Assembly (NCBI GenBank): GCA_002723155.1
Contig: PBNO01000011.1
Coordinates: 1 to 64,000, forward strand
Source of the DNA: Ponticaulis sp.
Lineage (GTDB): Bacteria; Pseudomonadota; Alphaproteobacteria; Caulobacterales; Hyphomonadaceae
DNA length: 64,000 nt
Reading direction: 5' to 3'
The first letter of the stretch is position 1, and the number at the start of each line of letters is the position of its first letter. The translations under genes and the position numbers were made by a program. The notes beneath the pieces were generated by a model. It was not told the DNA's origin, made no database searches, and was given only the letters and a program-made list of their open reading frames with translations. Below, one piece after another: positions 40,228 to 56,104 of this stretch.

Positions 40228-41817
40228 CTACCAGAATGCGACGTAGATGGCGCAGAGGATGAGTACGATCAGCACGCTGGCGATATTGAAGCCAGTATGA
40301 GTTCGGAAGGAAATCCCGCCCACGTCAACCGGTTGGTCCTCATTTGGCTTCGGTGTGAGGAGGGATGCCAAAACTCCGACCACGATGCAGATCAGGAAGA
40401 CAATCCAGATACGCAGAACGAATGGCAGATCCGGCAGAAGGATTTTCGCTGCAACGCTCAGAACCGCAGAAGAGATGAGCAGTGCGAATGCGCCATATTT
40501 GTTCGCACGCTTCCAGAAGAAGCCAAGCAGGAAGACGGCAACAATACCTGGCGCGATGAAGCCGGTATATTCCTGGATAGCCTGGAAGGCACTCTCAAGG
40601 CCGCCGAGGAATGGACGCGCCAGAACCAGAGCGATCAGCATCGCAACGAAAGCTGTGATACGGCCGACCATCACATAGTGACGTTCTGAAGCGTCTTTCA
40701 CGATGTAGTCGCGGTAAATGTCCATGGTGAAGATCGTGGAGATGGAGTTCATCATGGATGCGAGCGAAGACACGATTGCCGCGATCAGGGCTGCGAACAC
40801 GATACCGCGCAGACCTGCTGGTACGAGCGTCATCAGAGTGCCGTATGTGCTGTCTGGTGTCTGTGTCAGCTGGTCCAGCGGAAGCTGGCCGTTCTGAGCG
40901 AGCCAGAGCGCAGCAATGCCCGGAATAACAACGATCACAGGAATAAGAAGTTTGAGGAAGGCTGCGAATGCGAGACCTTTCTGCGCTTCTTTCTCGCTCT
41001 CAGCGCCAAGTGCGCGCTGGATGATGTACTGGTTGAAGCCCCAGTAAGAGAAGTGAAGAACCCAGAGGCCGCCGAGGAGCGTCCAGATGCCCGGAAGATC
41101 ACCATAGGACGCATGGTCTTCGGACAGGATCATGTTGAAGTGACCTGGCAGTTCGCCAAGTAGCGTGTTGAAGCCTGCAACAGGGCCTGCATCACCGCCC
41201 ACCATATCAAGTGAGATATAGAGGATCGCAAAGCCGCCAAGGATCAGGATCACAACCTGAATAATGTCGGTCAGCGCAACGGCTTTCAGGCCGCCATAGA
41301 TAGAATAGAGCACTGCAAAAACTGCGAGGCCAGCCATAGCCGGAATGATCGGTACGCCCGTTACGGCTGTGATTGCGAGGCCGCCGAGCCAGAGAATGGC
41401 TGTGAGGTTCACGAAGGTGTAGAGCGTGATCCAGAACACCGCCATGATCGTTTTGATCTCTGCCCCGAACCGTGTCTCGAGGAATTGCGGCATGGTGAAG
41501 ATTTTCCGCTTGAGGAAAATCGGCAGGAAGAACTTTGCGACAACAAGCAGGACAATTGCTGCCTGCCACTCATAGGCCGCAATGGCGAGGCCTACGACGA
41601 AGCCCTGACCGGACTGGCCGATAATCTGCTCTGCCGAAATGTTCGCAGCAATGAGAGATGCACCAATCGCCCACCATGGCAGGGCCTTACCCGCCAGGAA
41701 GTAGTCTTCAGTGTCTTTGGTGTGGCCTGCCGGTTCACGTGACACCAGCAGGGCAATTCCGAGTAGCGCAATGGCATAAGCCACCACGATAATAATATCG
41801 ATAGTCTCTAGGGCCAT
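40228..41817 (-). CDS. SSS family sodium:sugar symporter (SGLT-like), first copy
   Basis: A 529-residue membrane protein with about 14 helices of the solute:sodium symporter family. It has the SGLT-type start (D-Y-F-L-A-G-K-A-L-P-W-W-A-I-G-A-S-L-I-A-A-N-I-S-A-E-Q, in parts) with the Na+-site helix. The long loop and F-N-Q-Y-I-I-Q-R-A-L-G stretch are typical of sugar-transporting members. By context it takes up glucose or short glucan products into the cytoplasm for glk. It lies 27 bp behind the GH3 gene and 105 bp before zwf. Confidence 0.9.
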   Translation of the reverse strand: MALETIDIIIVVAYAIALLGIALLVSREPAGHTKDTEDYFLAGKALPWWAIGASLIAANISAEQIIGQSGQGFVVGLAIAAYEWQAAIVLLVVAKFFLPIFLKRKIFTMPQFLETRFGAEIKTIMAVFWITLYTFVNLTAILWLGGLAITAVTGVPIIPAMAGLAVFAVLYSIYGGLKAVALTDIIQVVILILGGFAILYISLDMVGGDAGPVAGFNTLLGELPGHFNMILSEDHASYGDLPGIWTLLGGLWVLHFSYWGFNQYIIQRALGAESEKEAQKGLAFAAFLKLLIPVIVVIPGIAALWLAQNGQLPLDQLTQTPDSTYGTLMTLVPAGLRGIVFAALIAAIVSSLASMMNSISTIFTMDIYRDYIVKDASERHYVMVGRITAFVAMLIALVLARPFLGGLESAFQAIQEYTGFIAPGIVAVFLLGFFWKRANKYGAFALLISSAVLSVAAKILLPDLPFVLRIWIVFLICIVVGVLASLLTPKPNEDQPVDVGGISFRTHTGFNIASVLIVLILCAIYVAFW

Positions 41818-44384: not shown

Positions 44385-44414
44385 ACCTTATTGTCCGATA
44401 ATGGACAAAGTCAA
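44385..44414 (-). promoter_or_regulatory. Candidate promoter of the GH3-SSS-zwf arm, with operator in the spacer
   Basis: On the minus strand TTGACT (44409-44414) and TAAGGT (44385-44390) are 18 bp apart, and the operator palindrome (44391-44408) fills the spacer exactly. The -10 match is partial. Occupation by a repressor here would block polymerase. Confidence 0.4.
44391..44408. promoter_or_regulatory. LacI-type operator candidate 1 (TTGTCC-N6-GGACAA)
   Basis: A perfect 18-bp inverted repeat with 6-bp arms lies in the 151-bp gap between the GH3 and LacI genes. A second match is found 1.2 kb away before the TonB-dependent receptor. The inverted pair GGACAAA/TTTGTCC further spans 44403-44427. 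The two occurrences flanking a lacI gene make a LacI-family operator the best reading. Confidence 0.6.
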
Positions 44415-45560: not shown

Positions 45561-45578
45561 TTGTCCCTTATTGGACTT
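45561..45578. promoter_or_regulatory. LacI-type operator candidate 2 (TTGTCC-N6-GGACTT)
   Basis: An 18-bp site with the same left arm and spacing as candidate 1 and four of six matching bases in the right arm. It is about 100 bp before the TonB-dependent receptor start. TTGACA at 45584-45589 just behind it could be a -35 box, though I see no good -10. Confidence 0.55.
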
Positions 45579-45677: not shown

Positions 45678-48665
45678 ATGTATCGCGAAAATAAAAATCC
45701 GCTCGCGCGTTTGCTCGCGGGTGTGTCTGTCATTGCCGTGGCAGGTTTCGGGGCATCCGCTTATGCGCAAGACGTAGAGCAGATTCCAGAAGAACAGCAG
45801 GACGAAGCGCGCGTCGAAGACGAAGTCGTAGTACTTGGTATTCGTAGCTCCCTTCGCGACGCTCTGGGGCTCAAGCGTGACGGACAAGGTGTTGTCGACG
45901 CGATCACAGCTGAAGATATCGGTCAGTTCCCTGACACGAACCTTGCTGAATCTCTTCAGCGTATTTCCGGCGTTTCTATTGACCGTTCTCTCGGCGAAGG
46001 TTCTTCTGTAACCGTTCGCGGTTTCGGCGCTGACTTTAACCTCGTAACGTTCAATGGCCGTCAAATGCCAACGTCTACGCTGGGTGACGGCGCGAGCCCG
46101 CCATCAAGCCGTTCTTTCGACTTTGGCAACCTCGCGTCTGAAGCGATCTCTGCTGTTGAAGTTTACAAGACAAGCCGCGCGATCATCCCGACAGGCGGTA
46201 TCGGTGCGACCATCAATATCCGCACAACGCGTCCGCTCGAAGCTCCGGGCCTCAACGCGACGATCGGTCTGAAGGGCGTTTACGACGAGAGCCAGCTTGA
46301 GGACACTGATCTGACACCGGAAATCTCCGGTCTCTACTCCAACACCTTCTTTGATGATCGTCTTGGTGTGTCTCTCTCTGCGAGCTACCAGCACCGCCGC
46401 GGCGGCGTAGCACAGTCTAACGTTGGCTGGCGTGACGGTTACCTCGGGTCTCCGGCGTTCCAGAATGAGTGGGGCGCTCTGCCGGTTCCTGGCTCATGGA
46501 ACTTCAATGGCGGTGTTGTGAACCGTCCGGGCGACAACGACGTTTATGCAGTTCCGCAGAACGCTGACTACGAGCTCGCAGATTTCGATCGTAAGCGTGT
46601 GAACGGTCAGCTGACACTTCAGTATGACTTCACAGACAACATTCGTGCGACAGTAGATTACACCTACTCTCAGAACGAAGTTGAAGTGAACCGCAGCACA
46701 GCGGGTATCTGGTTTGATCACGCGCAGACAAACAGCGCTTGGACAGACGGCCCGGTTGCTGGCCCGCTCTATTACACAGAGTTCTTCGGCGCGACTGACC
46801 TGTCTTACTCAGGTGCGCTGATCGCAAACCGTTCAGAGAATAACTCTATTGGCTTCAACCTCGCATGGGACGTTAATGATCGCCTCAGCCTCGAGTTTGA
46901 TGCGCACAACTCAACTGCGGAATCGCTGCCAACAAACCGTTTCGGTTCAAGCGTTTCTCTTGGCACAACTGTTTATGGTGTGTCCGAGCAGACGATTAAC
47001 TTCGAGAACGACCTTCCGGTCATTTCGATTGTGAATGGCAATGGTCTGCCTGATCCGGAAGATGTCACAAACCGCGTCGGTTCTGGTAGCTCTTTCCGCA
47101 ACGCGACAATGCGTGACGAGATCACTCAGATCCGTGCAATGGGTTCTTATGAATTCGATCACCGCTTCATCGATAGCGTCGACTTCGGTGTCTCTTCTAT
47201 CGAAAACCGCGTGAACTCTGCTTACGGCTTCATCCAGACCGACTCATGGGGCGGCCTTGGTACGCCAGCAGATTATCCGGATGATCTGTTCGAGTGGGTA
47301 TCTCTCCCGGACAAGTTCGAAGGCATCTCCGGTGCGAACGATCCGAACATGCTTCAAGGTATGTACCGCTTCAACTTCGAACAGCTCGCTGACCTGATGG
47401 AATCCCAGTTCGGCATCTGCTCAAGCCCTTGGACGGGTACGGCTATGCCGGGCACATGTCTTGCGGAACAAACTGTTGTTCGTGAGATCACCGAGGACAC
47501 GATCAGCGCGTACTTCCAGGCAAACAACACATTTGACCTGATGGGTCGTGATGCAAACCTGACAGTGGGGCTGCGTTATGAAGAGACTGAAGTTACGTCC
47601 AGCGCGCTCCAGCAACAGCCGAATGGCACAATCTGGGCAGCACCGAACGAGTTCTATTACACGTTCGACGCGACCCCGAGCTTCACAGTTGCCGAAGGCA
47701 GCTATGATCACCTGCTGCCATCCATCGACTTTGACTTCCAGCCAATGGAGTATGTGAAAGTTCGTGCATCATACAGCCAGACGATCACACGTCCGACGTA
47801 TGACAACATGCAGGCTGGCATTGATTACGTGATCCCGTTCCGTGCTGCAGAGGCTCTCGGTTCTCAGGGTAACCCGGGTCTTGATCCATACCTGTCTGAA
47901 AACATCGACTTCTCTGCGGAGTGGTACTATGCGGACGACAGCTATGTGTCTCTCGGTTACTTCAACAAGAACGTAGAGAACTTCATCGGTACTGGTCGCT
48001 TCGACCAGACACTGAGCAATCTGACGAACCCGTCAAATGGTCCTCGCGCTGATGATGCTCGTGCGGCACTCGGTTCTGGCGCCACGCTCGAAGAAATTCG
48101 CAACTACATTATTGCGAACTATCCGGGCACGCTCGACGCTCAGGGCAACCCGATCGGTCAGCCAGGCGATGCGCCTATCGTTCTGCAGACGACTATTCCG
48201 GTTGCAGACAGCCAGACAGCTGAATTCAGCGGCCTCGAGTTTGCGGTACAGCACCTGTTCGGTGACACAGGCTTCGGTGTGGTCTTCAACTACACACTGA
48301 CAGACTCTGACTTCACCTATGACAACACCCAGCCTTACACTGTGACCCAGTTTGCAGTTCCAGGTCTGAGTGACAGTGCGAACCTGATCGGTTTCTACGA
48401 GAACGAACGCTTCCAGGTCCGTGCTGCGTATAACTGGCGTGACGAGTTCCTCGCTGGTGGTGGACCTAACCCGTTCTATGTTGAAGAGTATGGTCAGCTG
48501 GATCTTAGCGCGAGCTATGACTTCGAAAACGGGGTCTCCGTCTTCATGGAAGGCATTAACGTGACGGGCGAGAACCGCCGAGGACATCGTCGTCACGAAA
48601 ACAATGTTTTCTTCATGAGCCAGGGTGATGCGCGCTGGGCGATCGGTGCTCGCAAAACCTTCTAA
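45678..48665 (+). CDS. TonB-dependent outer-membrane receptor for a carbohydrate (CarboxyTBDR type)
   Basis: The 995-residue protein has a signal peptide (A-S-A-Y-A-Q, about 26-31), a TonB-box-like V-V-V-L-G-I-R region and a plug domain (about 60-190: Q-F-P-D-T-N-L-A-E-S-L-Q-R-I-S-G-V-S-I). A 22-strand-sized barrel follows, ending in F (A-R-W-A-I-G-A-R-K-T-F). This group takes up oligosaccharides in Caulobacterales, Sphingomonadales and Alteromonadales. Next to GH16 and GH3 enzymes it is likely to import beta-glucan oligosaccharides; TonB/ExbBD are not in the locus. About 100 bp before it lies the LacI operator. Confidence 0.92.
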   Translation: MYRENKNPLARLLAGVSVIAVAGFGASAYAQDVEQIPEEQQDEARVEDEVVVLGIRSSLRDALGLKRDGQGVVDAITAEDIGQFPDTNLAESLQRISGVSIDRSLGEGSSVTVRGFGADFNLVTFNGRQMPTSTLGDGASPPSSRSFDFGNLASEAISAVEVYKTSRAIIPTGGIGATINIRTTRPLEAPGLNATIGLKGVYDESQLEDTDLTPEISGLYSNTFFDDRLGVSLSASYQHRRGGVAQSNVGWRDGYLGSPAFQNEWGALPVPGSWNFNGGVVNRPGDNDVYAVPQNADYELADFDRKRVNGQLTLQYDFTDNIRATVDYTYSQNEVEVNRSTAGIWFDHAQTNSAWTDGPVAGPLYYTEFFGATDLSYSGALIANRSENNSIGFNLAWDVNDRLSLEFDAHNSTAESLPTNRFGSSVSLGTTVYGVSEQTINFENDLPVISIVNGNGLPDPEDVTNRVGSGSSFRNATMRDEITQIRAMGSYEFDHRFIDSVDFGVSSIENRVNSAYGFIQTDSWGGLGTPADYPDDLFEWVSLPDKFEGISGANDPNMLQGMYRFNFEQLADLMESQFGICSSPWTGTAMPGTCLAEQTVVREITEDTISAYFQANNTFDLMGRDANLTVGLRYEETEVTSSALQQQPNGTIWAAPNEFYYTFDATPSFTVAEGSYDHLLPSIDFDFQPMEYVKVRASYSQTITRPTYDNMQAGIDYVIPFRAAEALGSQGNPGLDPYLSENIDFSAEWYYADDSYVSLGYFNKNVENFIGTGRFDQTLSNLTNPSNGPRADDARAALGSGATLEEIRNYIIANYPGTLDAQGNPIGQPGDAPIVLQTTIPVADSQTAEFSGLEFAVQHLFGDTGFGVVFNYTLTDSDFTYDNTQPYTVTQFAVPGLSDSANLIGFYENERFQVRAAYNWRDEFLAGGGPNPFYVEEYGQLDLSASYDFENGVSVFMEGINVTGENRRGHRRHENNVFFMSQGDARWAIGARKTF

Positions 48666-48742: not shown

Positions 48743-49753
48743 ATGCGTCTCGCTGCATCTCTCGCTTTTCTCGTTCTCGCGTCCTGCCAGACGCCATCTG
48801 GTGTGACGACGGGTTCGGGGCTCCCTCTTCCTCCCGAGCCGTCTGACGGATCGGACTTCATCCTCCCTGCTTCTGGATGGAATCTGGTTTGGTCAGACGA
48901 GTTTGAAGGCGCATTCCTCGACCGCTCCAAGTGGGAGGTCGAGGAATCGTGCTGGGGAGGCGGTAATGACGAACGTCAGTGCTATGTGGACTGGCCTGAG
49001 ACCGTGCAACTCGCCAACGGTCAGCTGCGCCTCATCGGTTACCGGCAGACAGTGTCCGGACCGCAATACCCCCATGAATGGGAAGGTGGACGCGGTGAAA
49101 CTGTTCAACAATCCTATGTATCGGGCAAAGTCCGCACGCGCGGCCTCGCTGACTGGACTTATGGCCGGTTCGCAGCGCGCATGAGACTGCCACCAGGGCA
49201 GGGCACATGGCCTGCCTTCTGGATGCTTCCCGCTGATAATACTTATGGACCGTGGGCTGCTTCCGGTGAAATCGACATCATGGAAGCCGTTAATCTGGGC
49301 GAAGTCTGCGACGAGTGTCCGTTCGACGAAGGCGAAAACCGTAGCTCCGGTGCACTGCACTTTGGTGGTGAGTGGCCAGACAATACGCATGATGTGAATT
49401 TTGCGCCGCTGCCTGGTGGTCCGGGTGCAGCAGACCGCTTTCACGTCTTCGCTGTGGAATGGGGCGCTGGCCAGATCAACTGGTATGTCGATGACAATCA
49501 GATTTTCTCCATGTCCGCCGAGGACTGGTACTCTGGTAATGCTGATCCGGACGCGTTTCCGAATGCACCGTTTGACCAGCCATTCTATCTCATGCTGAAC
49601 CTCGCCGTTGGCGGTGGTCTTTCAGAAGACAATAACCGTCGAGGGTTTGATCCGGATAGTTTTCCGGCGGAATTGCTTGTCGACTGGGTTCGAGTCTATC
49701 AATGTGAGGAAGACCCTGAAACAGGGCGCGCCTGCATGCGGGGCGACGAATAA
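48743..49753 (+). CDS. GH16 family endo-beta-1,3-glucanase (laminarinase-like) lipoprotein
   Basis: The 336-residue protein has a lipobox L-V-L-A-S-C (Cys 15). The GH16 domain covers about 45-330, with the catalytic E176-I-D178-I-M-E181 (ExDxxE form, typical of laminarinases rather than kappa-carrageenases). The region W-N-L-V-W-S-D-E-F-E-G near the start is normal for bacterial GH16. It should cut beta-1,3-glucan to oligosaccharides for the neighbouring receptor and GH3. Exact substrate (laminarin versus mixed-linkage glucan) is inference. Confidence 0.93.
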   Translation: MRLAASLAFLVLASCQTPSGVTTGSGLPLPPEPSDGSDFILPASGWNLVWSDEFEGAFLDRSKWEVEESCWGGGNDERQCYVDWPETVQLANGQLRLIGYRQTVSGPQYPHEWEGGRGETVQQSYVSGKVRTRGLADWTYGRFAARMRLPPGQGTWPAFWMLPADNTYGPWAASGEIDIMEAVNLGEVCDECPFDEGENRSSGALHFGGEWPDNTHDVNFAPLPGGPGAADRFHVFAVEWGAGQINWYVDDNQIFSMSAEDWYSGNADPDAFPNAPFDQPFYLMLNLAVGGGLSEDNNRRGFDPDSFPAELLVDWVRVYQCEEDPETGRACMRGDE

Positions 49754-49792: not shown

Positions 49793-51316
49793 ATGGAAGA
49801 GGCGGTAAAGCATATCGTCATTGTGGGTGGTGGTACGGCAGGCTGGATTACAGCCGGAACGATTGCTGCCCGCCATCCGGACCGTTCCGAAAACGGTGTC
49901 CAGATTACGCTTATCGAATCCCCGGACGTGCCCACAATCGGCGTGGGTGAAGGCACATGGCCGACTATTCGTCGGACGCTGTCGCGCATGGGGATTACAG
50001 AAGCCGAGTTTCTGAAAACCTGTGATGCCTCGTTCAAACAGGGGTCGCGGTTTGATCGCTGGGTGACCGGCGATGCATCCGACAGCTATCATCATCCGTT
50101 CGATCTTCCGGTATCGCAAAACGGCACTGATGTGCTGCACGCATGGAAAACGTTCGCGCCTGAAAAAAGCTTTGCTGAAGCCGTCTGCGCGCAAGGCTCT
50201 GCGCCGCTGAACAATCTTTGCCCGCGCCAGAAGGGCATGCCGGATTATTTGGGCGCAATGAATTATGCCTATCACCTTGATGCGGTGAAGCTGGCTCACC
50301 TATTGAAAAGCCATGTTCTGGGTAAGCTGGGCGTTCGCTATGTTCAGGACCATGTGACCGAGATTGTTGGCGCGCCGGATGAAGATGTATCTGCTGTGCG
50401 TTGCCGCGATGCAGGTTTGATTGAAGGCGATCTGTTCGTTGACTGCACCGGGCAGGCCTCGCTCATGCTGGGGCAGCACTATGGCGTCGGTCTGCATGAT
50501 CAGAGCCATATCCTGTTCAATGATAGCGCCGTTGTCGCGCAACTGCCTGTGGCGCCGGATAGCCCGATTGTTTCGCAGACCGTATCGACTGCGCATGAGG
50601 CGGGCTGGATCTGGGATATCGGCCTCACGACGCGCCGCGGTATTGGCTGCGTGTATGCGTCCCGTTACATGGATGCGGACAAAGCAGAAGCAACGCTTCG
50701 AAATTACATGGGCAACTCAGATGTCAAAGTGCGCCATCTGAACTTCACATCCGGCTATCGAGACGAGTTCTGGCATCGCAACTGCGTGGCTGTTGGCCTG
50801 TCTGCAGGCTTTATCGAGCCGCTCGAAGCGTCAGCCATTGTGATGGTAGAGCTGTCTGCTGAAATGATTGCAGAAAACCTGCCGGTATCGCGTGCCGTCA
50901 TGTTGCTTGAGGCGGATCGGTTCAACAAGCTCTTCACCTATCGCTGGGAGCGCATCGTCGACTTCCTGAAGCTGCACTATGTGCTCAGTAAGCGCACCGA
51001 GCCATACTGGCAGGAAAACCGTGATCGGGAGACTATTCCGGAGCGGCTGCGCAATCTTCTGGAAATCTGGAAGCACCGCCCGCCAGGCCCGCATGACTTC
51101 GAGCATGCGAGCGAGGTCTTCCCGGCGCCAAGCTATCTCTTCATCATGTACGGAATGGGAATGGAGCACCAGATGCACCCGACGCTTCAGCCGCGTGTGC
51201 AGGACCAGCTCCAGAAAGAGATGCAGAATGTCATCCGCAAGCAGCGGAGCTTTGCATCCGGTCTGCCGACCAACCGTGCCTATCTTTCCGCTTATTCCGC
51301 CGAGCCGGCGCTGTAA
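49793..51316 (+). CDS. Flavin-dependent tryptophan-halogenase-family protein 1 (WxWxIP motif altered)
   Basis: The 507-residue protein has the FAD motif G-G-G-T-A-G-W (12-18), the lysine K82 equivalent to the catalytic Lys of halogenases in A-S-F-K-Q-G-S, and the E-P-L-E stretch that holds the catalytic Glu. The WxWxIP signature reads W272-I-W274-D-I276-G, so the Pro is missing. Members chlorinate or brominate tryptophan or indoles with FADH2 and a partner reductase; TBDR-linked ones have no established substrate. It is the first of five genes with 3-11 bp gaps or overlaps (49793-56104), with GH16 39 bp upstream. Confidence 0.9.
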   Translation: MEEAVKHIVIVGGGTAGWITAGTIAARHPDRSENGVQITLIESPDVPTIGVGEGTWPTIRRTLSRMGITEAEFLKTCDASFKQGSRFDRWVTGDASDSYHHPFDLPVSQNGTDVLHAWKTFAPEKSFAEAVCAQGSAPLNNLCPRQKGMPDYLGAMNYAYHLDAVKLAHLLKSHVLGKLGVRYVQDHVTEIVGAPDEDVSAVRCRDAGLIEGDLFVDCTGQASLMLGQHYGVGLHDQSHILFNDSAVVAQLPVAPDSPIVSQTVSTAHEAGWIWDIGLTTRRGIGCVYASRYMDADKAEATLRNYMGNSDVKVRHLNFTSGYRDEFWHRNCVAVGLSAGFIEPLEASAIVMVELSAEMIAENLPVSRAVMLLEADRFNKLFTYRWERIVDFLKLHYVLSKRTEPYWQENRDRETIPERLRNLLEIWKHRPPGPHDFEHASEVFPAPSYLFIMYGMGMEHQMHPTLQPRVQDQLQKEMQNVIRKQRSFASGLPTNRAYLSAYSAEPAL

Positions 51317-51319
51317 TTT

Positions 51320-52051
51320 TTGAGGTCATTCATGACGAACCATGTTGCTGTAAACCCGATCGACCATAAAGCGCTGCGCGTATCGCACGAGCGTAACGGG
51401 CTGACGGGTGACGGCGTTATGTGCTGCATCACGTTTCCGGACGAGTTCCGGAATGTGCAGGGCGAATATCCGATCCTGTTCCGCATGAATGAGAGCCGTA
51501 CAGACTTCCACTGCATGGCGCTGTTCGGCCTGGAAAACGGCGAAAACCAATTCCTCACAGACAACAAATGGGATGCCCGCTACATCCCGCTGGCCATGGA
51601 TATTCAGCCCTTCCTGATCGGGCGTCCGCAGGGCGAGGGCGAAGACCCGAAAGTTGTGATCGATCTCGACAATGACCGGGTCAATGAAGGCGAAGGTGAG
51701 CGTATCTTCGATGATGCAGGCCACCCGACAGAGTATCTGGAGACAATCTCCAAAAAACTGGCTTATCTCGACACAGGTTTTCAGGCATCTGCAGGCTATA
51801 TTGCCGTGCTGAAAAAGTATGATCTGCTCGAGCCGCTGACGATTGATGTCACCATGCCGGACGGGTCTAAGAACAGCCTTGTTGGCTTCCATGCAATCAA
51901 TGAGGAAAAACTGGCGGGACTGTCCGGCGAGGCGCTCGGAGACCTGCAGGCGCAGGGCTATCTGCAGCCGACCTATATGGCGCTCGCATCTCTGTCACAG
52001 CTCGGCGAACTGATCCGTCGGAAAGCAACAATCGACAGCTATGAGCTCTGA
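51320..52051 (+). CDS. SapC family protein
   Basis: The 243-residue cytoplasmic-looking protein belongs to the SapC family (H-x-x-L-R-V-S near the start, F-P-D-E-F-R-N-V-Q-G-E-Y-P-I-L-F-R around 36-52). It was named for S-layer protein export in Campylobacter, but in marine bacteria such genes sit with TonB receptors and halogenases, and no S-layer is implied. It starts 3 bp after halogenase 1 and overlaps the cupin gene by 11 bp. No signal peptide or membrane helix is seen; role unknown. Confidence 0.88.
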   Translation: MRSFMTNHVAVNPIDHKALRVSHERNGLTGDGVMCCITFPDEFRNVQGEYPILFRMNESRTDFHCMALFGLENGENQFLTDNKWDARYIPLAMDIQPFLIGRPQGEGEDPKVVIDLDNDRVNEGEGERIFDDAGHPTEYLETISKKLAYLDTGFQASAGYIAVLKKYDLLEPLTIDVTMPDGSKNSLVGFHAINEEKLAGLSGEALGDLQAQGYLQPTYMALASLSQLGELIRRKATIDSYEL

Positions 52052-53069
52052 GGTTTTATCTCTTGACGATGTTGCGCCCCTGAAAGAGGTGCTGGCGACG
52101 GGCTTTGAAGAGCTGCGTCCACATATTGCTGAGAACAGACCCTTCGTCGTGCGCGGGTTGGTGAAAGACTGGCCGCTGGTGCAGGCCGGCTCGCAGTCTG
52201 GCAAAGCCGCGCGGGACTATCTGCTTACCAAGGCCCGTGATGTGCCGTTTGTGGTGAATATAGGCTCACCTGAACATGACGGCCGCATGTTCTACCAGCA
52301 CGATATGTCCATGAATACGCAGATGGGCAAAGCGCGTCTGCCTTTGGTGTTTGAACGCATTGACCGCGTGGAAGCCGATGACGCCCAGCAGATTGTCTAT
52401 ATGAGCTCAGTGGATATTCGTCAGTTTTTTGACGGTTTGCACGAAGAAAATCATATCGACTTCGGCGCGATCAAGCCGCTGGAATCCATCTGGATCGGCA
52501 CAAAAACACGTGTCGCGCCGCATAATGATTTTCCGGACAATATTGCCTGCGTAGCTGTCGGGCGTCGCCGGTTCACCCTGTTTCCACCGGAGCAATTCCG
52601 GAATCTCTATATTGGTCCGATCGATAACACACCGGCTGGCCGTGCCATCAGCATGGTCGATCTGCATGATCCGGATTTTGAAACCTATCCGCGCTATAAA
52701 GATGCGCTCGCGGCGGCGCAGACGGCAGTGCTTGAGCCGGGCGATGCGATCTTCATTCCATCCATGTGGTGGCACGAAGTCGACGGGCTTTCGCCGTTCA
52801 ATGCCATGATCAATTACTGGTGGCGTGAGACGCCGCAATATCTTGGCGCGCCGCAGAACGCACTGAACCATGCCATCATGGCGATACGTGATTTGCCAGA
52901 GGACGAGCGTCGTCACTGGGGCGATCTGTTCGATTATTACGTCTTCGAGAACGGCCCCGAAGTGCGCGAACACATTCCGGAACACGGGCGGGGGATTCTT
53001 GACCCTATGACGCCTGAACGTGCTGGAAAGATTAGAAGTTTTCTTCTGAGAATGCTGACAAACGAGTAG
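52041..53069 (+). CDS. JmjC-type cupin protein (Fe(II)/2-oxoglutarate oxygenase-like)
   Basis: The 342-residue protein has the facial-triad metal motif H161-N-D163 in V-A-P-H-N-D-F and the distal His H245 in S-M-W-W-H-E-V. This is the arrangement of JmjC/cupin_8 hydroxylases such as FIH-type enzymes. All three ligands are present, so it may be an active hydroxylase, of protein or small-molecule substrate. It sits between SapC and halogenase 2 with gaps below 12 bp, suggesting a linked reaction. Confidence 0.88.
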   Translation: MSSEVLSLDDVAPLKEVLATGFEELRPHIAENRPFVVRGLVKDWPLVQAGSQSGKAARDYLLTKARDVPFVVNIGSPEHDGRMFYQHDMSMNTQMGKARLPLVFERIDRVEADDAQQIVYMSSVDIRQFFDGLHEENHIDFGAIKPLESIWIGTKTRVAPHNDFPDNIACVAVGRRRFTLFPPEQFRNLYIGPIDNTPAGRAISMVDLHDPDFETYPRYKDALAAAQTAVLEPGDAIFIPSMWWHEVDGLSPFNAMINYWWRETPQYLGAPQNALNHAIMAIRDLPEDERRHWGDLFDYYVFENGPEVREHIPEHGRGILDPMTPERAGKIRSFLLRMLTNE

Positions 53070-53078
53070 GTTCTGACG

Positions 53079-54578
53079 ATGCAGAAAAAAATAAAAAACT
53101 ACGTCATTGCGGGAGGCGGTACAGCAGGATGGATGGCAGCGGCGCTGCTCTCCAAAACGATGGGAAACGAGATTTCCATCACGCTTGTTGAATCCGAAAT
53201 GATCGGCACCGTTGGTGTGGGTGAGGCGACCATTCCGCCGATCCTCCGCTACAACAATATTCTGGGCGTCAACGAAGCCGAGTTCATGCGCGAGACTATG
53301 GCGACGTTCAAACTCGGCATTGAATTCGAGCACTGGAAAGACGTCGGTCACAAATATCTGCACTCGTTCGGCCATGCCGGTAAGGACCACTGGACGGCGG
53401 GCTTCCAGCATTTCTGGCTGGCTGGCAAAAAGCGCGGCATCTCTACGGACTATGGCGATTACTGTCTTGAGGTGCTCGCGGCGAACCAGAACCGCTTCGC
53501 CCAGCTTCCTGATAACGGTATTAATTACGCCTATCATCTGGATGCGAGCCGTTACGCTGCTTTCCTGCGTCGATTTGCTGAGAAGCATGGCGTTGTGCGC
53601 CGGGAAGGTAAGATTGGCGATGTCCGTCTGAACGCCGAAACGGGCAATATTGAAGCGCTGCAGCTTGAAGCCGGGGATGTGATTGAAGGCGATTTCTTCA
53701 TCGACTGTACCGGTTTCCGCTCGCTTCTTATGGGTAGGGCGCTGCATGTTGGCTATGACGACTGGAGCCATTATCTGCCATGCGACAGCGCCGTGGCGGT
53801 GCAGACGAAATCTGTCGGTGCGCCTGTGCCTTACACGCGTTCGATTGCCCATGCCGAAGGCTGGCAATGGCGCATTCCGCTTCAGCACCGCACGGGCAAC
53901 GGTCTCGTCTATTGCGAACGCTATCTTGGCCGTGATGAAGCGGCAGAACGCCTGCTGGCGAATGTCGAAGGCGAGACACTGACCGATCCGCTGCACATTC
54001 GATTCCAGACAGGTGCACGCCGTAAGCAGTGGCATAAAAACTGCGTTGTTGTGGGTCTTGCGGGTGGCTTTATGGAGCCTCTGGAGTCGACCTCCATCCA
54101 CCTTATTCAAAAGTCGATTATGCGTTTGGTTCGTCTGCTTCCGACGACACATCTGGTGGATGCTGACATTCGCGAGTTCAATGATCAGACCTTCGAGGAC
54201 ATGATCACGATCCGCGACTTCCTGATCCTGCACTATCATGTGACCGAGCGCCGTGACAGCGCGTTCTGGCGCTTCTGTGCAGAGATGGACATTCCTGACT
54301 CTCTGCAGCAGAAGATCGACCTGTTCTGCGAGTCCGCGCGTGTGTTCCGGAAAGGCGAGGAACTCTTTGCCGAGAATTCCTGGACGCAGGTGATGATGGG
54401 GCAGGGGCTGGAGCCCAAATCCTATCATCCGATTGCGGACAAAATGACGGATGACGAGCTCACCTATTTCCTGAACCAGATCAAAACGGACGCGTCACGT
54501 GCGGCAGCTCGCCTGCCAAAGCATGAGGAGTATATCCGCCAGTATTGCGCGAGCGCTGACGTCATGGAAATGGCGTGA
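53079..54578 (+). CDS. Flavin-dependent tryptophan-halogenase-family protein 2 (complete motifs)
   Basis: The 499-residue protein has the FAD motif G-G-G-T-A-G-W (12-18), the lysine K77 in A-T-F-K-L-G, and the full WxWxIP signature W262-Q-W264-R-I-P267. It also keeps the M-E-P-L-E-S-T-S-I-H-L-I catalytic Glu region. It is a canonical member of the family and differs from halogenase 1 in the WxWxIP and active-site surroundings. It overlaps the following symporter gene by 4 bp (GTGA). The halogenated substrate is unknown; no flavin reductase is encoded in the cluster. Confidence 0.92.
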   Translation: MQKKIKNYVIAGGGTAGWMAAALLSKTMGNEISITLVESEMIGTVGVGEATIPPILRYNNILGVNEAEFMRETMATFKLGIEFEHWKDVGHKYLHSFGHAGKDHWTAGFQHFWLAGKKRGISTDYGDYCLEVLAANQNRFAQLPDNGINYAYHLDASRYAAFLRRFAEKHGVVRREGKIGDVRLNAETGNIEALQLEAGDVIEGDFFIDCTGFRSLLMGRALHVGYDDWSHYLPCDSAVAVQTKSVGAPVPYTRSIAHAEGWQWRIPLQHRTGNGLVYCERYLGRDEAAERLLANVEGETLTDPLHIRFQTGARRKQWHKNCVVVGLAGGFMEPLESTSIHLIQKSIMRLVRLLPTTHLVDADIREFNDQTFEDMITIRDFLILHYHVTERRDSAFWRFCAEMDIPDSLQQKIDLFCESARVFRKGEELFAENSWTQVMMGQGLEPKSYHPIADKMTDDELTYFLNQIKTDASRAAARLPKHEEYIRQYCASADVMEMA

Positions 54579-56104
54579 GCCAGACCGACCTTTTCGTTCT
54601 CTCTGGCGTAATCGGTCTGCTGCTTACGGTGGGGCTGGTCGGGCGGAAGAAGTTTGCAACCACGCAAGCCTATTTTCTGGCAGGGCGTGAGCTTCGCTGG
54701 TGGCAGATCGGGATTTCCCTGTTTGCCACCAACTTTTCCGCAGCGGCGATTATTGGCCTCACAGGCGCTGCCTATCTCACTGGCATTGCGATTTATAACT
54801 ATGAGTGGGTCGGCATTATCGCCATGGTCGTATTCGCCATGGTGCTGGCGGGCGCGCTCAGGCGCAGTCAGGTCTATACGATCTCCCAGTATCTGGAGGA
54901 GCGCTTCGGCCAGACAGTGAAGATCGCCTATTCGGCCTTCGTGATCTTTCTGATCATTTTCATTGATATGGCGAGCGCGCTTTATGCGGGCGGCATGCTG
55001 CTGCGGGAGGTGTTCCCTTTCGCTTCGGTCAATCTGATCATCTTTGTGATTATGCTTCTGGTGGGGGCGTATTCGGTACTTGGCGGCCTCTCGGCGATTG
55101 CCCGTACGGATGTGATTCAAACCGTGGTGATTGCCGTCGGCGCGTTTCTGGTCGCGGGCTATACCTTTCACGCGGTTGGAGGCTGGAGCGCCTTCGTTGC
55201 TTCAGCGCCGGAAGAAAGCCTGTCGCTCATCCGGCCACTCGACGATATCGCAGTGCCTTGGACGGGGCTGATCACCGGCGTTCCAATTCTTTGTGCGTAT
55301 TTCTGGTTCGCCAATCAGAATATGGTGCAATGGGTTCTCTCCGCGAAATCTGAAGGTGATGCACGCCGTGGCCTTATGATGGCCGGGTTCATGAAAGTCG
55401 TCGTGCTTTTCATCATTGTTTTGCCCGGTGTCGCTGCGGTTAGCCTGTTTCCGGGCCTCAGTCAGGCGGACCGGATCTACCCGACGCTGCTGTTTGAACT
55501 TCTGCCGACGGGTATTCTTGGTCTGGTACTGGCGGGCTTTGTGGCCGCAATCATGGCGAGCGTTGATTCAACGCTTCATGCCGCGTCGACAATCATCACC
55601 ATGGATTTCGTTCACCGCGGGCGTAAGGAGCTTACGCCGAAGCAGCTTGTCTGGACGGGGCGGATCATCACCATGATCATCATCTGTTTCAGTGCGATCT
55701 GGGCGCCGCAGATTGGCCATTTCGGGACGCTGTTTGAGTATGTGCAGGGCGTGCTGTCTTACGCCGTAGCGCCGATTGTCGTCGTGTATCTGGGCGGATG
55801 GTTCTGGCAACGGGCGACCTCATCAGGGGCGCTGGCTGCGCTTGTGTCTGGTGTTGCGACCGCGATTCTGATCGGCATTCTGCAGCAGACCGGCTATTTC
55901 ACGACGCACTATCTGCACGTGCCTCTTCCTGTAGCGACGGTGAGCCTCGTGGCTTTGATCGTTGTGTCGCTCACGTCCAAGCGGCATGTTCCGCCAGAAG
56001 ACAGATTGCTGGTGCGCGACACTGCAAGCCTGACATCGCGCGACGGTGTCATAGCGCTCGCGCTGACATTGCTTGTCGGGCTGCAGGTGATTGCCTTCTG
56101 GTAG
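54575..56104 (+). CDS. SSS family sodium:solute symporter, second copy
   Basis: The 509-residue transporter starts at GTG 54575, which overlaps the halogenase stop. It has about 13 membrane helices and the SSS pattern Y-F-L-A-G-R-E-L-R-W-W-Q-I-G-I-S-L-F-A-T-N-F-S-A-A near 28-50. It is only distantly similar to the symporter at 40228-41817 and may carry another substrate, for example a modified or different sugar, or an aromatic compound. It ends the halogenase operon and is convergent with mmsB, 3 bp apart. Confidence 0.88.
   Translation: MSQTDLFVLSGVIGLLLTVGLVGRKKFATTQAYFLAGRELRWWQIGISLFATNFSAAAIIGLTGAAYLTGIAIYNYEWVGIIAMVVFAMVLAGALRRSQVYTISQYLEERFGQTVKIAYSAFVIFLIIFIDMASALYAGGMLLREVFPFASVNLIIFVIMLLVGAYSVLGGLSAIARTDVIQTVVIAVGAFLVAGYTFHAVGGWSAFVASAPEESLSLIRPLDDIAVPWTGLITGVPILCAYFWFANQNMVQWVLSAKSEGDARRGLMMAGFMKVVVLFIIVLPGVAAVSLFPGLSQADRIYPTLLFELLPTGILGLVLAGFVAAIMASVDSTLHAASTIITMDFVHRGRKELTPKQLVWTGRIITMIIICFSAIWAPQIGHFGTLFEYVQGVLSYAVAPIVVVYLGGWFWQRATSSGALAALVSGVATAILIGILQQTGYFTTHYLHVPLPVATVSLVALIVVSLTSKRHVPPEDRLLVRDTASLTSRDGVIALALTLLVGLQVIAFW

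Follow-up and report, generated by a model that had tools for sequence, protein, structure and literature searches.

The operon studied here occupies positions 49,793 to 56,104 of a 64,000-nucleotide stretch of DNA from Ponticaulis sp. (contig PBNO01000011.1; the whole stretch is called the window below). It encodes two flavin-dependent halogenases (Hal1 and Hal2), a SapC protein, a JmjC-type Fe(II)/2-oxoglutarate (2OG) oxygenase and a sodium:solute symporter. Comparison with other genomes revealed a recurring unit of the form TBDT-(Hal1)-SapC-JmjC-Hal2, where TBDT is the TonB-dependent receptor encoded upstream; this unit is real, widespread and conserved. The reading that we prefer, at a probability of a little under 0.4, is that the operon encodes both a sugar receptor of the outer membrane and a group of cytoplasmic proteins which would modify this receptor before its export. 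The receptor and the five genes of the tight run are as follows (window coordinates):

45678..48665, plus strand: TBDT, 995 aa; TIGR01782 at 606 bits (cut-off 310), PF07715 and PF00593; signal-peptide-like start
49793..51316, plus strand: Hal1, flavin-dependent halogenase, grouped with the SapC-adjacent enzymes; PF04820, E 8e-119, 398 bits (cut-off 21)
51332..52051, plus strand: SapC; PF07277, E 3e-62, 210.5 bits (cut-off 28.9); signal peptide not visible
52041..53069, plus strand: JmjC/Cupin_8 Fe(II)/2OG oxygenase, FIH-like; PF13621 (Cupin_8), E 6e-69
53079..54578, plus strand: Hal2, JmjC-adjacent flavin-dependent halogenase, assigned to the Xcc4156 type; PF04820, E 1e-187, 625 bits (cut-off 21)
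54575..56104, plus strand: sodium:solute symporter, accessory; PF00474, E 9e-67

The five genes of the run had been predicted from the letters of the DNA, without database searches (the sequence-only reading), and all of them were recovered in place with strong family matches. The same reading described every junction as an overlap or a gap of at most 9 bp. This holds from SapC onwards (SapC and JmjC overlap by 11 bp, JmjC and Hal2 are 9 bp apart, Hal2 and the symporter overlap by 4 bp) and depends on the start codon between Hal1 and SapC, which are 3 bp apart if SapC starts at TTG 51320 and 15 bp apart if it starts at ATG 51332. Comparison with homologues favours the ATG, which is probably the start of translation.

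The arrangement recurs far above chance. Alignment of the JmjC protein retrieved at least 585 loci, and the best 80 of them, a sample biased towards relatives of the window and including some loci cut off by contig ends, were examined by name. A TBDT gene lies upstream in 76 of the 80 runs, SapC is present in 75 and a halogenase in 73, with two halogenases in 59; a LacI-family repressor was found in 46, a glycoside hydrolase of family 16 (GH16) in 28 and a symporter in only 4. These loci come from Hyphomonadaceae, Sphingomonadales, Xanthomonas, Pseudoxanthomonas, Massilia, Duganella, Cellvibrionales, SAR92 and others, and the complete order LacI-TBDT-GH16-Hal-SapC-JmjC-Hal-symporter is repeated in metagenome-assembled genomes (MAGs) of Hellea (L215, in which the TBDT is split into two open reading frames (ORFs)) and of a member of the Hyphomonadaceae (L216). 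The neighbourhood survey which the sequence-only reading had proposed as a check thus came out in its favour: the genes travel together in other genomes, and the refuting outcome, genes that do not travel together, did not occur. Two details of that reading had to be revised. The symporter, which we considered as a member of the conserved unit and rejected, is a local addition, and the unit is not confined to the five genes, since the TBDT belongs to it too.

A further survey started from SapC. Genomes from the whole breadth of the phylum were sampled; 104 of the 299 have SapC, and 101 of its loci (100 retrieved loci and the window) were longer than 10 kb. In control searches, Caulobacter vibrioides likewise gave members of the SapC and halogenase families. 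Thirty of these loci contain a halogenase and 71 do not; in two of the thirty (L059 and L072) the halogenase is more than 3 kb away and its catalytic Lys is missing. A receptor of the window type was found near SapC in 28 of the 101 loci, 27 of which belong to the thirty with a halogenase. Two further genome searches yielded 34 small JmjC loci (L295-L328, overlapping partly with the main survey), and in 32 of them both SapC and a halogenase stand beside JmjC. The window genome itself contains two halogenases past an E-value of 1e-20, namely Hal1 and Hal2, besides two weaker matches of 20-23 bits, and two SapC genes, the second of which lies outside the operon.

Some variants of the run were also seen. 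Two loci (L202 and L207) carry a shorter TBDT-Hal-SapC-symporter run, without JmjC and Hal2, and in a relative of the module on contig C21 of genome G314 the Hal2 gene is interrupted by an in-frame stop.

The receptor and its partner genes are inherited jointly. In a tree of 116 receptors, all 24 that are accompanied by SapC and JmjC fall within one clade of 26 leaves (support 1.0); the window receptor is counted among the 24 even though GH16 pushes its JmjC gene more than 3 kb away. The two remaining leaves are L204, with a halogenase and neither SapC nor JmjC nearby, and L163, with no halogenase nearby. Receptors with a halogenase and without SapC are placed mostly in other clades. Across 19 genomes carrying the module, a listed TIGR01782 receptor is no more than 5 kb away from at least 77 of the 101 halogenase genes, a lower bound, as 150 of the 186 receptors were listed. 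Tree distances of the TBDT correlate with those of SapC at r 0.88, and with those of SapC, JmjC and Hal2 over a range of 0.87-0.90.

The catalytic residues of the enzymes are intact. A GxGxxG motif that binds flavin adenine dinucleotide (FAD), a catalytic Lys and Glu, and the WxWxIP motif characterize flavin-dependent halogenases. The first three can be read in both window enzymes; WxWxIP is complete in Hal2 and has the form WxWxIG in Hal1. Among the 72 halogenases that precede SapC (one of them, L025, being a second copy of L107), the last residue of this motif is G in 58 and A in 11. In alignments, the active-site Lys and the second Glu were found in all 72 of these proteins and in 97 of 97 halogenases that follow JmjC. 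A tree of 220 halogenases (one duplicate included) splits with support 0.999 according to position in the operon: the 78-member side holds all 72 pre-SapC enzymes and only three (L100, L200 and L212) of 99 post-JmjC enzymes.

The solved structures nearest to Hal2 are those of Xcc4156 (6y1w, 672 bits), then 9luq and BrvH (6frl, 430 bits), and those nearest to Hal1 are 9ltb and 2pyx. Hal2 aligns with 6y1w over nearly its full length with one single-residue gap, and neither of the two substrate loops located in the Xcc4156 paper carries an insertion; judged by this alignment, Hal2 is an open-site halogenase of the Xcc4156 type. In Xanthomonas arboricola (L280), a TBDT-SapC-JmjC-Hal run includes a halogenase that scores 1,025 bits against 6y1w.

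We consider it highly improbable that the two proteins are non-halogenating flavin monooxygenases, or sensors of redox state or oxygen. This idea draws on QhpG, a flavoprotein with a halogenase-like structure which is reported to hydroxylate, and on the loss of the catalytic Lys from some members of multi-halogenase clusters (9 of the 220 proteins overall); it is opposed by the retention of Lys and the second Glu at both positions of the operon and by the bromination reported for Xcc4156. Hal1 and Hal2 score 27.1 and 26.5 bits against the QhpG equivalog model of NCBIfam, below its cut-off of 240 bits; QhpG serves here only as a precedent for the modification of a protein ahead of export.

Separately, seven loci (L197, L199, L201, L205, L206, L213 and L214) contain rows of several halogenases in which one member has R, S, A or V in place of the Lys, beside intact ones; from its sequence such a member looks like a non-catalytic partner.

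Small aromatic molecules are the usual substrates of flavin-dependent halogenases, and it is possible, although in our view unlikely, that the operon makes or alters a compound of this kind (indole-, phenol- or pyrrole-like), which would serve, once halogenated and hydroxylated, in signalling or defence in the presence of glucan from algae or plants. Both BrvH and Xcc4156 are reported to accept free indole; Xcc4156 is further reported to brominate its model substrates exclusively, to leave free Trp unchanged and to have an open site, for which its authors suggest peptide substrates. The low activity of BrvH, whose site is open as well, led its authors to doubt that indole is the natural substrate. 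The literature states that the native substrates of BrvH and of the Xanthomonas brominases are unknown. Transporters of the major facilitator superfamily recur near module loci without GH16 (15/71 and 3/53 proteins in two scans, which covered 124 of 162 ORFs, 71 and 53) and could be exporters, though sugar importers would fit too. Against this possibility, no recurring pathway for an aromatic scaffold appeared among the 25 families listed for each scan (34 and 38 further families were present), AMP-binding proteins being found in 1/71 and 3/53, and the sharing of one TBDT clade is left unexplained.

The iron-binding triad HxD...H of the oxygenase is intact (H161, D163 and H245) and invariant in 22 of 22 sequences. 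The best matches of this protein in the PDB are FIH and JMJD5. Both are protein hydroxylases, from which we infer that JmjC may act on a protein substrate. Inspection of the sequences by eye revealed a signal-peptide-like start in the TBDT and no signal peptide in Hal1, SapC, JmjC or Hal2, which would be consistent with action in the cytoplasm.

SapC gave no match to PDB sequences, and its AlphaFold2 model (mean predicted local distance difference test score (pLDDT) 96) had no Foldseek match to the PDB at E 0.001. The family PF07277 is presumably named after SapC of Campylobacter fetus. The sapC gene of that species is described as encoding a component of the Sap transporter. In three genomes of one genus from the order to which the window belongs (L039, L040 and L046), SapC directly follows a TBDT at a distance of 44-91 bp, with halogenase and JmjC absent within 20 kb. 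SecA-like or ShlB/TpsB genes were seen in several other SapC loci; outside the module, 85 of 121 ORFs near SapC were scanned. In the 71 loci without the module, family models grown from single examples, with no control set behind the counts, gave matches within 20 kb to ShlB/TpsB (6), OEP (5), SecA-like (11), M50/HlyD-like (29) and general TBDT (11) proteins, of which 2, 2, 3, 3 and 3, respectively, adjoin SapC. These contexts hint at export or surface proteins. In seven loci (L061, L078, L079, L082, L086, L131 and L134), SapC occurs with a SecA-like ATPase and M50/HlyD-like proteins, in some of them with an outer-membrane efflux protein as well, an assembly that looks like a dedicated secretion system.

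The same data bear on a further alternative, namely that the TBDT would merely be co-regulated and that a different protein is modified, be it SapC, the co-exported GH16 or some other protein of the cell surface. SapC adjoins Hal1 and JmjC in most runs and occurs in other, partly export-like loci, both of which agree with this proposal. Nevertheless, we regard it as quite improbable: GH16 is present in barely more than a third of the named runs (28/80), and most surveyed SapC genes (71/101) have no such enzymes nearby, so that SapC need not be modified to work.

Modification of the receptor, or of another exported protein, before export best fits these observations, because enzymes of cytoplasmic-looking protein-hydroxylase and open-site halogenase types are tied to one receptor clade. 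Of the two targets offered by the sequence-only reading, a surface protein and an aromatic compound, the first is favoured by indirect evidence. The following sequence of events can be envisaged: (i) SapC, as an export partner or holdase, would present the TBDT precursor; (ii) the FIH-like JmjC protein would hydroxylate it; (iii) Hal1, with SapC, and Hal2, with JmjC, would halogenate aromatic side chains, most likely by bromination and perhaps on Trp in extracellular loops; (iv) the modified TBDT would reach the outer membrane and take up beta-gluco-oligosaccharides; and (v) GH16, a glycoside hydrolase of family 3 (GH3) and the symporters would complete sugar use under LacI control. A stronger form of this proposal, which we put forward as doubtful, is that of a dedicated system in which SapC holds the TBDT precursor while Hal1, JmjC and Hal2 add Br (or Cl) and OH to loop residues and so tune glucan capture; the orphan halogenases of the Xcc4156 type, and perhaps those of the BrvH type, would then have their native function in such a system.

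Several observations weigh against modification of the receptor. The correlation of tree distances is not discriminating: it is also high for TBDT and LacI (0.84) and for TBDT and GH16 (0.70), and the similarity of the trees therefore mostly shows inheritance as an operon (for GH3, r is 0.37, perhaps owing to mixed paralogues). Five of the 80 named runs (L228, L265, L272, L273 and L286) have JmjC and TBDT and lack a halogenase. An FAD-linked oxidase adjoins SapC in 11 of the 71 loci without the module, compared with 2 ShlB, 2 OEP, 3 TBDT and 3 SecA-like neighbours, and the export role of SapC is therefore weakly grounded.

Nor did the receptor sequences yield a clean residue marker when those with and without a halogenase were compared. 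Two Trp residues, W524 and W920, are present in 94 of 94 receptors of the clade, including five without a Hal2-type enzyme; they thus do not track the halogenase, were rejected as its markers, and may instead bind the beta-glucan ligand. The strand pattern in the AlphaFold2 model of the TBDT (mean pLDDT 85) and the usual TBDT topology suggest an extracellular position for W524 and for the long loop that follows strand 500-521. A third residue, W265, belongs to a loop close to the N-terminal region of the barrel; Trp occupies this position in 76 of 89 receptors with a Hal2-type enzyme and in 1 of 5 without (uncorrected p 0.003). In these numbers L204 is counted as Hal2-type, as its halogenase groups with Hal2 enzymes outside the Hal1 side of the tree, although local support is weak; in the first scan, where it was counted as lacking Hal2, W265 was the best of all columns (76/88 vs 1/6). 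This column was, however, picked from a scan of all columns, and the alignment of its loop is loose: gaps stand there in two of the five receptors without the enzyme, and 13 carriers of the enzyme have no Trp. Four additional JmjC loci that lack a halogenase nearby contained no TBDT or SapC within 5.5-5.7 kb and so provided no further W265 case. No receptor residue tracking Hal1 passed the thresholds when W, Y, H, F, N, D, P and K were scanned.

The genes around the unit point to the use of beta-glucans. The remaining features of the locus are:

48743..49753, plus strand: GH16 glycoside hydrolase; PF00722
44441..45499, plus strand: LacI-family repressor; PF00356 and PF13377
41845..44334, minus strand: GH3 glycoside hydrolase with Exop_C domain, divergent; profile match
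40228..41817, minus strand: second sodium:solute symporter, after GH3; profile match
44391..44408, no strand: predicted LacI-type operator, perfect palindrome with 0 mismatches, between the divergent GH3 and LacI genes
45561..45578, no strand: another, imperfect instance of the predicted operator, in front of the TBDT gene

The sequence-only reading had placed the operon directly after a TonB receptor and GH16, within a beta-glucan locus, and both statements stand: TBDT and GH16 lie upstream of Hal1, and in the window the receptor stands beside hydrolases of two beta-glucan families, GH16 and GH3, the arrangement by which a beta-glucan utilisation locus is recognized. By family, the GH16 enzyme is probably a beta-glucanase; LacI is likely the regulator of the locus, and the operon symporter probably carries sugar into the cytoplasm. 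The operator pattern, with up to two mismatches allowed, matches six times in the window compared with 2.1 expected (a tighter pattern was derived from the window sites themselves, which makes its low expected count circular). Its perfect palindromic form was found in one of 332 loci; in this locus, L216, it stands about 110 bp ahead of the region of LacI homology. The palindromes at both promoter regions are likely LacI operators.

Such a beta-glucan-like setting usually accompanies the module, to judge from family matches, because GH3 or GH16 was found close to the unit in 15 of the 24 survey modules and in 56 of 80 named loci, in contrast to none of the 71 SapC loci without the module; for TBDT-halogenase loci without SapC the count is 5 of 24. 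Together with the LacI gene in 46 of the 80 runs, this association would suit enzymes that act on what the receptor imports, with phenolic or aromatic groups on plant or algal beta-glucan being halogenated or hydroxylated for detoxification or removal. We judge this distinctly unlikely, since the enzymes look cytoplasmic and decorations are normally removed earlier, neither GH3 nor GH16 was seen in the available stretch of 9 of the 24 survey modules and 24 of the 80 named loci, and laminarin, to our knowledge, bears no aromatic groups.

Within the open-access literature (subscription papers being outside the scope of the search), we found no report linking SapC to a halogenase, or connecting tryptophan halogenases to TBDT loci for polysaccharide utilisation, although the neighbourhood may well have been noticed by annotators. 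Neither the Xcc4156 paper nor the BrvH paper uses the terms TonB, SapC or cupin in its main text, and gene cluster is missing from that of the former; halogenase, SapC, Pass1 and jumonji are absent from Blanvillain 2007 and Rodionov 2010, the main text being searched in each case. Given the conserved partnership, the co-encoded TBDT is a candidate substrate for the orphan BrvH and Xanthomonas brominases. If this is true, bacteria would halogenate a transport protein on purpose, SapC would acquire a function, and a modification step that has escaped notice would be part of many TBDT loci in proteobacteria.

The window locus shares its TBDT, glycoside hydrolases, LacI regulator and inner-membrane transporter with the proteobacterial TBDT loci for plant and algal carbohydrates, and differs from them in the added halogenation-hydroxylation set. 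Its oxygenase resembles FIH and JMJD5 in keeping the HxD...H motif, but the match to FIH is limited to about 125 residues. QhpG, which takes part in the biogenesis of quinohemoprotein amine dehydrogenase, is reported to act on a Trp within a protein that is still in the cytoplasm and awaits export, and differs in that it hydroxylates. The sequence-only reading had pointed to BrvH of Brevundimonas as a related halogenase. The kinship is confirmed at the level of the family, and BrvH likewise has an open site and a second halogenase gene adjoining it in its metagenome cluster; the link is nevertheless loose, as Hal2 is nearer to Xcc4156 and Hal1 has other nearest structures. The closest known counterpart of Hal2 is therefore Xcc4156 of Xanthomonas campestris, to which it aligns almost throughout and which has a close relative in the X. 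arboricola run, while the module, unlike Xcc4156, often has a second, separate halogenase, Hal1.

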